Source of the DNA: Nitrosococcus watsonii C-113
Lineage (GTDB): Bacteria; Pseudomonadota; Gammaproteobacteria; Nitrosococcales; Nitrosococcaceae
Direction of reading: 5' to 3'
NCBI RefSeq assembly: GCF_000143085.1
Contig: NC_014315.1
Coordinates: forward strand, 2,262,001 to 2,326,000
Length of the DNA: 64,000 bases
Numbering within the stretch: position 1 is the first letter of the stretch; each line of letters begins with the position of its first letter. Of this stretch, positions 12,955 through 16,643 are shown one piece after another. Below the pieces are notes generated by a model. That model worked only from the letters and a program-made list of their open reading frames with translations, was not told where the DNA came from and searched no databases. A program made the translations under genes and the position numbers.

Positions 12955-13400
12955 ACCCTTCTCCAGACGCAACAACTTATGGGATTATCTGAATTGACTC
13001 CACGCTAAGCGTTTTAGGCCATGCAAGCGAGATTTTTAAAATCATTCCAAAAAATATTCCTGTTTCAAAGCCGCCGTAGCTTGAGCCGCACCCCCCGTTC
13101 CACAAGCTATCCCCGCCAATCCGGCAATTCTGACATGCTATAACCACCGCAATGTCGCACTCGTGAGGAATGGCACTACAATATTCAGCGACTCCTGCCT
13201 TTTGCCATTCCAGCAAATGTAACGATAAATACTTATGAACCCATGTTTTCCAGAAACAGTTTAAAAGAAGGCCTGTTGTCCGTACAGGCATTACCGAAGA
13301 CTTTATGTTTTATAAAAGCCGCTGGCAGGACTTTATGCGACTTTCGGCAACCCTGCTTAAAACAAATTAAAAAGGAATTAGAATAGCCAGAATATCCAAC
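12955..13400. other. Spacer upstream of yicC, no convincing gene
   Basis: About 445 bases. A 104-codon frame on the minus strand (12977-13291) opens here but has no ribosome binding site and no recognisable sequence. The promoter of yicC should lie in this stretch, but I see no strong -35/-10 pair. Confidence 0.4.
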
Positions 13401-14096
13401 TTAATAGACGGCCGCATGAAAGTAATGAGGATTTCCTTCACGGAAAAAATTAACGCTTCCGGAGTAAGAGCGCACTTCTCCTGGATCAAGAATCGCTTTA
13501 TCAGAAGACTGCTCCCCTTTGGTAATCTCCGCCAAACCAACTTGAATACCTAGATCATCGAAAAGTAGAATTTTTACTTCAGGATATATCGCGGACGATC
13601 CATCATTTTGCAATACCACTCGGTATTCGGTTGCTGCTTCGCCTTGATTTTTGGTTAGAGTAAAAATAATATTCCGTAAATATTGGTCAGTAACGGAAAT
13701 AGCTCTGTCATACTCTAACGGTAATAAATAGGGCAATCGCCCTTGAACCAGCGTATTCCGCTCATTCTGCAACTTTTCCAACGCTGCGGTTGCTGCCACT
13801 AAATGCCGCCTTTGTTTATTGAATTCTGCCAAAATGCGGTTATTTTCTGCGGATAATCCAGAAGTGTAAATCCATAGAAGCAGGATTGTTAACGAGAATA
13901 AAAAAATGGAGCCACCCAATGCAAGCTGAAGTAACTTAATTTTTAGAGCACTGCGGCGTCGCCTTCCGGCATGCCCCTTATATGAGCGAATAAATTCAGA
14001 ACTAGGGTTTGGAGCAGGACCGTCCAGCTTTGACTGCGACCAACCTTGCTCTTCAACAGATAACAAGGAATTCTGGTGAATATCATGTTTACCCAT
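13401..14096 (-). CDS. Single-pass membrane protein of unknown function
   Basis: A 231-residue protein with a hydrophilic, basic N-terminal segment (GRRRRSALKIK near residue 45), one membrane segment (about 55-77), a coiled-coil-like helix (ENNRILAEFNKQRR, then ALEKLQNERNTL) and a C-terminal beta domain of about 90 residues. The beta domain pattern (EYRVVLQNDGSSAIYPEVKILLFDDLGIQVG, LDPGEVRSYSGSV) resembles the FxLYD/DUF3426-like immunoglobulin-type domains of extracytoplasmic proteins. With the basic side inside, the beta domain would be periplasmic. GGAAGAAGT precedes the ATG. It sits next to the repeat/integrase region and could belong to it, but nothing proves that. Confidence 0.65.
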   Translation of the reverse strand: MGKHDIHQNSLLSVEEQGWSQSKLDGPAPNPSSEFIRSYKGHAGRRRRSALKIKLLQLALGGSIFLFSLTILLLWIYTSGLSAENNRILAEFNKQRRHLVAATAALEKLQNERNTLVQGRLPYLLPLEYDRAISVTDQYLRNIIFTLTKNQGEAATEYRVVLQNDGSSAIYPEVKILLFDDLGIQVGLAEITKGEQSSDKAILDPGEVRSYSGSVNFFREGNPHYFHAAVY

Positions 14097-14640
14097 ACTT
14101 CTTCCAGCTATTAAGGATGCTAGGTGGCCTCAACATCCGTAACTTCTTCGCAAATATAAAAAATTACACTATAAATTAGCTTTAATAATTCACCTCCAAT
14201 ACAAATTACATGCCGATATCGTATATACTATTATATTTCAATTACTTAGAATCTCATTAAGTGATTAAATCATGGCTAATTTTCGCTAATCTTTACATTT
14301 TGTCAATGCTGGATTATTAACTTAAATATATTTATATTTATTTTCAATAACTTAATATTATTGCCCAGTGTTCAATTTTTTTACACAATGGCCAATTCCA
14401 TCTTATACTGAAGCGACTTTGGAGAGTTCCGCCATATTGAACTGTAAGATTCGCCTTTCCTCGCAACTCTTGGGTAACGGCTAAGTTAAGTTCTACGAGC
14501 TCGGGATTTTTACCGCTCTATGCGCTTTGAGAGGTTTCAGCGCTCCCCACCGCACCCTAGCGTATTATAGTCATTTCATTGAATTATAAGACAATATAAC
14601 TATCTGATTTTATTAGATTGCGGCAAATAGCCGTAGCTTG
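14097..14640. other. AT-rich gene-free stretch
   Basis: About 540 bases, strongly AT-rich between about 14150 and 14400, with many runs of TTAATA and TATAT. There is no plausible reading frame. It may hold the promoter of the minus-strand membrane protein and marks the left side of the repeat/integrase region. Confidence 0.5.
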
Positions 14641-15077
14641 TAACTGATTGATTCTTGGGCTCCATAATTTTATGGAAGCGGATAATCAATGACTTATAGG
14701 CTATGCCGTTGATTAGACGGTGTAGTTGTGTAACTGTATGAATTTATTGGTGGTCCAAATCTGGACCATGTAACGGGTGGAAATCAGTCTCCCTCCCTTC
14801 CTCTCCACCATGACCGGAGGAAAGTTCTGGTCTTCAGTTATTGGCCTCGCCTTCTTTGGCGAAGCAGGTCTGGTCTCTGTCCAAGGGGTAAGGAAAGTTT
14901 ACGTCTTCAATTCTGTATGGTCTGTCTGTTTGGTCGCCAAAAGTGGTGTGCGAAAATATAGTTTGGTCTGCTACCCGTTGAAATGGTGGGTATGTTTGAT
15001 TTCAGGTTGACCGAAAACCAATATATAGTCTGGTCTCTGGTGTTTGCTCGCGGTTGACCAGGAGCAAAATTATAGGG

Positions 15078-15092
15078 GTAACGATTCGTTAC
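15078..15092. repeat. 15-base perfect palindrome GTAACGATTCGTTAC
   Basis: GTAACGA and TCGTTAC are exact inverted copies around one central T. It sits 11 bases before the third repeat unit. This could be a protein-binding site; there is no adjacent gene to regulate except the integrase about 360 bases away. Confidence 0.4.
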
Positions 15093-15388
15093 GGTTGGAT
15101 TGTAACTGATTGTTTTGTATTGACTCCCCAAATTTGGGGGGAGCGAATTACTCCCTCTGCCTCGTAACTGTATGATTTAATGGGACTCCCCAAATCTGTG
15201 GAATGCTTATTTTCTTTTATTCCTCTGGAAAGCTGGTACTCGCCGGGGGAACCACTATCTGGATTATGTAGCGGGCTGAAATCTTAGCTGGCTGAATAGA
15301 TAGCTCAAATCTGGATAGCGCCCTCTCGCGCATGAAATGTTAGCTGGTGGGTATAGCTACTGTTCCATGCACGACAGGGGCCGGTTTC

Positions 15389-15408
15389 GTGGCTGAAAAG
15401 TTAGCCAC
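15389..15408. repeat. Stem-loop downstream of integrase
   Basis: GTGGCT and AGCCAC pair around GAAAAGTT about 45 bases beyond the integrase stop. A shorter TACCC/GGGTA stem lies between it and the stop. Neither is followed by a T-run on the minus strand, so terminator activity is uncertain. Confidence 0.3.
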
Positions 15409-15450
15409 CAAAAGGATACCCCTACTATGGGTACCCCTTCGTTATTATGA

Positions 15451-16416
15451 TTAACCTATCTTACTGACTAAATCAGTGGCTCTTAAGTGCGTGTACCGTA
15501 GGAGCATTTTCAAATCTTTATGTCCAGTAATGCTGGCTACTTCTGTATGGTTTAATCCTTTCTCAAATAGTCTGCTAGTTGCTTCATGCCTTAAATCATG
15601 AAACCTTAAGTCCTCAATGCCTGCCTTGTTGGTGGCTCTGTCAAAGGCTTTAGTCATGCTATCAGCGTGTACTTTAAAGATAGGCCCAAAGCCTAGAGGT
15701 ATCTCTTTCAATATCTTGATAGCTTCTGAGGATAGAGGAATGGTTCTAGGAATGCCTGTCTTGGTCTCTGGAATATGGAGTGTTCTCTGTTTGAGGTCTA
15801 CGTCTCTCCATTCCATATTGGCTATTTCTCCCCTTCTCATAGCTGTTTCAAGGGCAAAGAGAATGACTGGTTGTAGACTCTCGCTAGCGTTCTCTAGCAA
15901 TAGCTCTTGTTCTCCAGGCTCTAGCCGTCTGGTTCTTCCCCTTGGGATCTTGGGCATTCTAATTTGTTGCACTGGGTTTCCATACGGTAGGCTGTATCCA
16001 AGATCTTTAATAGCATAATTGATAATCCGGCTAATCAGGGACAGGTCATGCTTTACCGTCTGTGCTGCTACGCTAAGCCCTCTCCAGTCCCTAAACTTTG
16101 ACAGTACAGCGGGAGTTATCCCAGCAAGGGAGTAGTCGCCTAGCCACTCCTTGAGGTATTTGATCCGGCTTTCTTCTTGGGCTATTCCTCTTTTGGTAAT
16201 CAGTGCTCTTTGTTTGTATTTGTCCAGAATGGTATTGAAGGTTATTCTTTGGGCTTCTGTAGTATCTTGGAATACCCCTCTTTCCATTTCATTCTCAACT
16301 TTCTTTATCCAAGTCAGCGCTAGTTTCCTGTCCTTGAATGATTTGGTAATCTGTTTATGCCCTCTCTTTCTGATCTGTACGTTCCAGCTATTGCCTCTCT
16401 TTCGTATGGTCGCCAT
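15451..16416 (-). CDS. Tyrosine recombinase/phage integrase
   Basis: A complete site-specific recombinase of about 321 residues. It has an N-terminal Arm/AP2-like part (MATIRKRGNSWNVQIRKRGH), a SAM-like core-binding domain, and a C-terminal catalytic domain. The catalytic set is intact: Arg in ALETAMRRGEIANM, HDLRHEATSRLFEKG (His-x-x-Arg), GHKDLK (second His) and the nucleophilic Tyr in LLRYTHLRATD. I use the ATG at 16416, which gives the family's typical opening and has GAGGG upstream; the frame stays open to a TTG at 16452. It lies about 100 bases from the 3' end of tRNA-Arg and points away from it, the usual arrangement for tRNA-targeting elements. No excisionase or cargo gene is present. 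Confidence 0.9.
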   Translation of the reverse strand: MATIRKRGNSWNVQIRKRGHKQITKSFKDRKLALTWIKKVENEMERGVFQDTTEAQRITFNTILDKYKQRALITKRGIAQEESRIKYLKEWLGDYSLAGITPAVLSKFRDWRGLSVAAQTVKHDLSLISRIINYAIKDLGYSLPYGNPVQQIRMPKIPRGRTRRLEPGEQELLLENASESLQPVILFALETAMRRGEIANMEWRDVDLKQRTLHIPETKTGIPRTIPLSSEAIKILKEIPLGFGPIFKVHADSMTKAFDRATNKAGIEDLRFHDLRHEATSRLFEKGLNHTEVASITGHKDLKMLLRYTHLRATDLVSKIG

Positions 16417-16444
16417 GTCTAATAATCCCTCAAACAGCTTAATT

Positions 16445-16463
16445 TGTGTCAAAAGTGTGTCAA
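16445..16463 (-). promoter_or_regulatory. TTGACACA direct repeat upstream of integrase
   Basis: Read on the minus strand, two exact TTGACACA copies are spaced 11 bases start to start, about one helical turn, 30-47 bases before the integrase start. Each contains a consensus -35 hexamer, but no good -10 follows at the right distance. They could be operator or integrase arm-binding sites. Confidence 0.35.
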
Positions 16464-16493
16464 GCTTGTTTGAGAGGATTGCAGAAATCTAGC

Positions 16494-16508
16494 TAACTGA
16501 TTGAATAT
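16494..16508. repeat. TAACTGATTGAATAT repeat at tRNA-Arg boundary
   Basis: This is a fifth copy of the TAACTGATTG motif, lying five bases before the 3' end of tRNA-Arg. Its position, between integrase and tRNA, is where an attachment site boundary is expected. The tRNA 3' sequence itself is not duplicated in the repeat cluster. Confidence 0.45.
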
Positions 16509-16512
16509 AAAG

Positions 16513-16586
16513 CGCGCCCGGTAGGATTCGAACCTACTACCCTCGGCTTAGAAGGCCGATGCTCTATCCGAATGAGCTACGGGCGC
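16513..16586 (-). tRNA. tRNA-Arg(TCT)
   Basis: Reading the minus strand gives a full cloverleaf: acceptor GCGCCCG with CGGGCGC, D-arm with AGCTCA, anticodon arm with loop CTTCTAA (anticodon TCT), and T-arm with GGTTCGAATCC. The discriminator base is G. The CCA end is not encoded (CTT follows). It lies 57 bases downstream of tRNA-Pro and is probably transcribed with it. Confidence 0.95.
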
Positions 16587-16643
16587 ATGGAACGGCATCC
16601 CCACAACCCATGAACTAACCAATATGCGCCGCTGTAAATAAAC

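Follow-up and report, generated by a model that had tools for sequence, protein, structure and literature searches.

Palindrome-linked IHF-like sites behind the integrase gene of a putative decayed tRNA-Arg-integrated element in Nitrosococcus watsonii

Genes and features at the locus

Nitrosococcus watsonii is a marine ammonia oxidiser, and the genome analysed here comprises 3.37 Mb in three contigs. The stretch of DNA under study (the window) has a length of 64 kb and corresponds to positions 2,262,001-2,326,000 of contig 1; if not stated differently, coordinates are those of the window. Around a tRNA-Arg gene the following features were assigned:

13291-14436, no strand assigned: host DNA, collinear with the relative G002 up to the breakpoint (86.7% to locus L069)
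14566-14599, no strand assigned: 34-base IS630 end and rearrangement junction (100% to the ends of other IS630 copies in this genome)
15411-15439, minus strand: hairpin followed by TTTT, directly past the int stop codon (inverted repeat and sequence reading)
15451-16452, minus strand: tyrosine recombinase gene (integrase, int), open frame of 333 codons (PF00589, E 1.6e-28; phrog_1 integrase, E 9.6e-66)
16512-16554, minus strand: attL, the 3′ half of tRNA-Arg, a block of 43 bases identical to attR (genome comparison)
16512-16586, minus strand: tRNA-Arg(TCT), the integration target (ARAGORN and Rfam tRNA)

The 3′ end of tRNA-Arg(TCT) adjoins int, which is a feature of elements with a tRNA-targeted tyrosine recombinase. 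In an alignment of eight integrase sequences the R, HxxR, H and Y positions are invariant, and the relatives align from residue 13 onward. The hairpin at 15411-15439 is a possible int terminator, and it was not among the predictions of the terminator scan of the region. For the 770 bases behind int the initial annotation had seen no explanatory gene; the two longest ORFs of the repeat region (77 and 74 aa) matched no Pfam or NCBIfam family at E ≤0.1.

Integration site and rearrangement of the element

The same genome has attR, a second copy of the 3′ half of tRNA-Arg, at G000:C1:859229-859284 (minus strand), with 93% over window positions 16500-16554. It lies 1.42 Mb from attL in inverted orientation, and tRNA-His and tRNA-Lys are located approximately 2.2 kb beyond it. 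The empty site is represented by G003, a genome of the same genus in which tRNA-Pro, Arg, His and Lys are contiguous without an insert. In G001 and G002, Arg and His are separated by approximately 10 kb and 2.5 kb, respectively, and tRNA-Arg fragments are present before His.

In G002, locus L069 matches the window up to position 14436, continues with 0.8 kb of its own DNA and then with sequence that matches another place of the N. watsonii genome (L084 295-6716, 90.5%). At that place, adjoining the attR half, a copy of IS630 has its end at L084 7843; two ORFs of this copy match PF01710 and PF13358. By our own reading, the IS end at 14566-14599 has the orientation predicted for an inversion between two IS copies. 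Relative to G002, an IS630-flanked inversion of approximately 1.42 Mb lies between 14437-14600 and G000:C1:856,700-857,843 (L084 6717-7843). The inversion splits the tRNA Pro-Arg-His-Lys cluster, with the open int beside attL, and the distant and inverted position of attR is accounted for by it, because the element was cut at about 14600. From the synteny with G002 and the IS ends it follows that the repeat region described below forms the inner margin of the half that carries int and ends at the rearrangement junction. Since attL and attR are inverted to each other, recombination between them in this genome would lead to inversion and not to excision.

Several further observations concern the tRNA genes and their fragments. 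At 16509-16512 the tRNA-Arg gene ends in CTT, and the attR copy as well as the G001 and G003 genes have CCA, which suggests that the encoded CCA was lost on integration. Behind the attR copy (L084 9284-11470) another tRNA-Arg 3′ fragment, more degenerate, follows after approximately 2 kb and precedes tRNA-His, which would fit the earlier insertion of an older element; a similar degenerate fragment is present in G002 (L085, position 10318 approximately). In G003 a tRNA-Arg 3′ fragment with att-type flanks is located at L088 8692-8743 (G003:C1:1,778,691), approximately 2.1 Mb from the intact cluster. Furthermore, about 58 bases of the window (14500-14557) have copies of 81-82% at several places in G002 and G003.

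Repeat units between the rearrangement junction and int

The features of the repeat region and the additional copy at attL are the following, with matrix ranks referring to the matrix described in the next section:

14634-14703, plus strand: repeat unit A, imperfect palindrome of 70 bases, each arm matching the IHF consensus perfectly (14641, minus; 14684, plus) (R1 model, self-comparison and matrix)
14724-14778, plus strand: repeat unit B, IHF-like motif with two mismatches and GGTCCAAATCTGGACC (R1 57.1 bits by construction; matrix rank 7)
15096-15150, plus strand: repeat unit C, IHF-like motif and CCCCAAATTTGGGG (R1 60.6 bits by construction; matrix rank 2)
15158-15213, plus strand: repeat unit D, IHF-like motif and imperfect palindrome (R1 61.5 bits by construction; matrix rank 9)
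15257-15283, plus strand: second motif of the initial annotation, a copy of the right-hand part of unit B that lacks TAACTG (81% over 27 bases)
15321-15379, no strand assigned: 59-base imperfect palindrome of the repeat region (self-comparison)
16492-16507, minus strand: IHF-like site at attL, the fifth copy (16494) (matrix rank 5; one mismatch to WATCARNNNNTTR)

All five previously listed copies of TAACTG(AT/TA)TG were recovered as exact matches on the plus strand, at 14641, 14731, 15103, 15165 and 16494. A genome-wide check bore out their clustering: the ten-base motif itself is not rare, TAACTGWWTG occurring 11 times in the whole genome compared to 15 times for a reversed-pattern control, yet five of these 11 occurrences lie here on one strand. 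The three genome-wide occurrences of GTAACTGNNTGA are all at the repeat locus (reversed-pattern control, 3). The spacing among units A to D is irregular (90, 372 and 62 bases). The second motif, claimed for positions near 14759 and 15257, was found again with 81% over 27 bases. An inverted copy of the repeat at 14683-14698, which forms the other arm of the unit A palindrome, had been absent from the earlier list.

In the self-comparison of 14600-15450 the best inverted repeat scored 30, and none of 200 simulated sequences exceeded 21; four direct-repeat pairs scored at least 15, and a simulated sequence had one such pair at most. The best single direct-repeat score of 18 is less special and was reached by 1% of the 200 simulations. 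The pattern is real and statistically strong.

Relation of the repeat to IHF sites

The reverse complement of the repeat, CA(AT/TA)CAGTTA, corresponds to the core of the IHF consensus WATCAANNNNTTR. PMC7581858 describes this consensus, the AT-rich sequence on the 5′ side of the sites and the part played by IHF in integration. According to PMC7286903, a genomic island is stabilised by an IHF site located upstream of intI, and earlier work placed an IHF site in the P4 int promoter. Tested in the form WATCARNNNNTTR, the consensus is perfect in unit A and in its inverted arm, has one mismatch in C, D and the attL copy, and has two in B; the AT-rich 5′ half is by eye weak in A and better in B to D. 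The window contains 12 perfect consensus sites, including those at 14597, 14641 and 14684. The host genome encodes IhfA (TIGR00987, 157.7 bits; cut-off 120.25) and IhfB (NF001222, 147.1 bits; cut-off 115).

The same type of sequence was found at att sites of other genomes. In G001, which belongs to the same genus, GTAACTTATTGATTT is located directly beside the 3′ ends of tRNA-Arg and tRNA-Lys, and the integrase beside this tRNA-Arg is only a 31% relative. A 16-base matrix was built from 18 att flanks of other genomes, namely those of 15 tRNA-adjacent relatives and three from G001 and G003. The flanks were picked by eye, and 15 of 23 relatives were used; L023, L032, L044, L059, L061, L063, L065 and L066 had no clear motif and were left out. 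Sixteen of the 18 flanks differ from WATCARNNNNTTR by one mismatch at most. With this matrix the inverted arm of unit A ranks first in the 64 kb window, and C, the attL copy, A, B and D rank 2, 5, 6, 7 and 9, respectively.

The matrix was then applied to 114 held-out loci with a hit threshold of at least 14 bits and with identical upstream sequences counted once. The viral-contig set comprised the best 80 of at least 600 matching stretches. Upstream of int 31 hits were found in 21.2 kb (1.46/kb), compared to 18 in 560.5 kb downstream (0.032/kb). The perfect consensus gave a similar picture, with 42 sites upstream (1.98/kb) and 62 downstream (0.111/kb) in the same amounts of DNA. Among the 85 held-out loci with at least 120 upstream bases, an upstream matrix hit was present in 28 and absent from 57, and a perfect consensus was present in 35 and absent from 50. 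For the choice of flanks by eye, the held-out loci are a partial control. The downstream DNA of the 114 loci never contained more than two matrix hits per 850 bases, whereas the 851-base region here has five, which marks the cluster of IHF-like sites with palindromes as unusual. The Poisson value of 1e-10 for the region ignores the kinship of A to D, whose hits are not independent because the units are copies of one another; if one ancestral unit carried the motif, the chance, estimated from the density of hits, is nearer 0.002-0.004.

From their sequence the repeats look like copies of a putative IHF binding site, each joined to a small palindrome. As the motif resembles the IHF consensus, the copy at 16494 occupies the usual att position and the other four are additional IHF-like sites. 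A first reading of the repeats as arm-type sites of the integrase was dropped in favour of IHF when the matrix matched WATCAANNNNTTR. Recombinase-associated sites had been among the earlier proposals, and this part stands insofar as the motif flanks the tRNA att sites of many family members, although it matches the IHF consensus and not a known integrase arm site.

The occurrence of the motif in att flanks, together with the common orientation of four copies downstream of an open reading frame for an integrase and the inverted arms of unit A around a dyad, as in an attP with flanking sites, would also be in line with an integron-like array of integrase recombination sites or with scars of serial integration. 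Integron cassette arrays likewise have a tyrosine recombinase followed by repeated palindromic sites. We regard this explanation as very unlikely, since attC-type RYYYAAC/GTTRRRY pairs, which average 0.13 in 75 control windows, number zero in the region, cassettes are lacking, no gene was recognised between the units, and the integrase is not of the integron type (31.7 bits with the integron-integrase model TIGR02249; cut-off 265). In addition, the outer arm spacing is 60 bases compared to 107 in the real att. Integration scars at the four copies, as suggested initially, were not borne out either: no tRNA 3′ fragment was seen at the units, no tRNA-end repeat longer than 11 bases was found within the window, and attR is located elsewhere in the genome.

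Palindromes and folding of the repeat region

Each of the copies A to D carries a palindrome approximately 28 bases on, in which compensatory changes keep the pairing; the palindromes noted initially after the first four copies are thus present, that of copy D being imperfect. Of the eight paired columns, six are changed on both sides, and 93.8% of the cells are paired. This pairing was reached by none of 500 shuffles, and slid versions pair 34-53% of the cells compared to 94%; the test comprises four sequences only, from which the structure itself was derived. In a separate alignment of the other strand, five of seven pairs were kept, and four further pairs are broken in one copy or another.

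The folding z-score of the 851 nt is -3.75 for the plus strand and -7.06 for the minus strand, and the repeat run gave -5.87 and -5.32, respectively, also beyond the range of 20 control folds from the same window (-2.12 to +2.04). The strongly folding region has its edges at about 14600 and about 15440, with the signal concentrated around the units and in 15060-15405, and the middle part (14791-15060) is ordinary (z -0.34 and -1.52). The excess of the minus strand depends partly on G-U pairs, with z -7.18 with and -4.24 without them. In the part with units A and B the signal was kept on both strands when G-U pairs were forbidden (z -5.03 and -5.92), and the minus-strand structure of 14600-14790 contains no G-U pair.

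A large structured noncoding RNA encoded by the region would explain the z-scores, the partial dependence on G-U pairs and the fact that the stretch behind int in a related element of G003 also folds above chance (z -3.92 and -2.21). We nevertheless consider such an RNA improbable. Good folding of both strands is what DNA palindromes give, 14600-14790 folds without G-U pairs and the middle 270 bases are ordinary. No Rfam model matched the region, no homologue was found, and six promoter-like sites compared to 5.1 expected are no excess.

Searches for the repeat unit in other sequences

With stricter filters, the R1 model recovered four copies in the N. watsonii genome, all at this locus, and no unit in 58 relatives. 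In 52 sources it found the four units only, all further matches having E 0.45 or worse. The region as a whole is present once in its own genome. A DNA search covered this genome and the 58 relatives, with five candidates scored per genome; its matches fell within int, the flanking host DNA, the IS end and one dispersed stretch. When 14100-16640 was compared with phages and plasmids, only the tRNA end of the query matched among the matches listed (20 of 476 and 20 of 132, respectively). Among viral contigs the unit pattern had no match, and the pattern of the second motif occurred in seven contigs, which was judged, not computed, to be chance level.

Palindromes carrying an IHF site are also known as dispersed sequences. 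RIP, RIB and BIME elements have a short palindrome with an IHF site and are scattered over the genome. The same combination is reported for the Neisseria Correia element in PMC2229807; Correia elements are dispersed, whereas the array here does not occur outside one element. A small dispersed element of the MITE or RIP/BIME type, which would correspond to the small non-autonomous element proposed earlier, is an extremely unlikely explanation and largely refuted for this genome, as all four copies lie in this one element and none was found in the 58 relatives.

A related element in the genus

A related element of approximately 9 kb was found in G003, of the same genus, in tRNA-Gly(CCC); it is bounded by tRNA-Gly copies, and its integrase is 61% identical. 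It encodes a small PF07508 protein, a regulator-like protein (phrog_9665), a protein of 501 aa matching phrog_4756 (function not assigned) and, towards the attR end, a protein of 220 aa whose homologue is encoded in the N. watsonii attR half (31% over 108 aa, E 1.8e-13). Two additional motif copies are located +273 (21.7 bits) and +4054 (19.9 bits) from int, and by eye no palindrome at +28 was seen beside them. The DNA near +273 gave a weak alignment to unit C over 59 bases (73%, E 0.006). Both elements overall have 11 common 11-mers, which is not above controls (mean 4.0, maximum 15). The 16-base palindrome GTAACGATTCGTTACG is common to window positions 15078-15093 and to the G003 element (L068 1021-1036) and could be an operator or initiator site.

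As R1 found only A to D and the palindrome at +28 was not seen in the G003 element, the composite unit is, within the sequences searched, limited to this genome, and no homologue of it was found that would bear on its function.

The units might alternatively be iterons of the replication origin of the element, bound by an initiator that the element encodes, with the IHF-like sequence as a helper or due to chance. The origin of the Vibrio satellite PLE offers a parallel: according to PMC7145576, RepA binds there to semi-palindromic repeats in a noncoding region, and here too direct repeats with internal dyads lie in noncoding DNA of an element that carries an integrase gene. The phrog_4756 protein of the G003 element would also agree with iterons. 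On balance this appears unlikely to us: unlike in PLE, no initiator gene was recognised in the remaining element, the spacing is irregular and the repeat resembles an IHF site, the motif being one found beside att sites. Moreover, the corresponding stretch of the G003 element is by our own reading without dyads.

Interpretation and comparison with known systems

Positions 14600-16554 are best explained as the half, on the integrase side, of a satellite-like element that had integrated in tRNA-Arg and has since decayed. The integrase, attL, the distant attR, the empty site in a relative, the IS630-flanked inversion and the related element of approximately 9 kb in the genus were all observed. 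That the region itself is a decayed control or replication region of this tRNA-integrating element, with an IHF-type sequence as its repeat, is a reading of the sequence that we favour with modest confidence. IHF would bend the DNA at the repeat sites, and the bent DNA would enable a palindrome-binding protein, which might be the integrase, an excision factor or a replication initiator, to build a complex. Such a complex could control int, excision or the replication of a circular form. The element of this genome is no longer intact, and its array probably represents a relic. Among the initial proposals, recombinase-associated sites came closest to this reading, whereas integration scars and a small non-autonomous element did not hold.

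IHF sites at attL and integrase promoters are found in lambda, P4 and PAI I of E. coli 536, which agree with the locus described here in the consensus, in the position between the tRNA 3′ end and int and in the tyrosine integrase. They differ from it in that several more copies are present here behind int, all of them joined to a palindrome. A bolder reading would take the units for a new kind of array of recombination sites, folded or architectural (or a large structured RNA), in the tRNA-integrating satellites of the genus, with an IHF-type sequence and a covarying palindrome at a fixed distance in each site; we give it very little credence. The odd noncoding stretch is explained largely by known, mostly ordinary parts in an unusual cluster.

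The TAACTGA direct repeats of marine Beggiatoaceae have this heptamer in common with the repeats described here. According to PMC4679880, they form sets of heptamer direct repeats that in the best-studied genome are mostly located just before start codons. A kinship was set aside. The text consulted for these repeats does not contain the terms 'integrase' and 'palindrom'.

As a usable rule, TCAANNNNTTA between a tRNA 3′ end and an integrase gene marks many att regions of this integrase family. With an open int beside attL and attR inverted at a distance of 1.42 Mb, any residual activity of the integrase would invert more than 40% of the chromosome.
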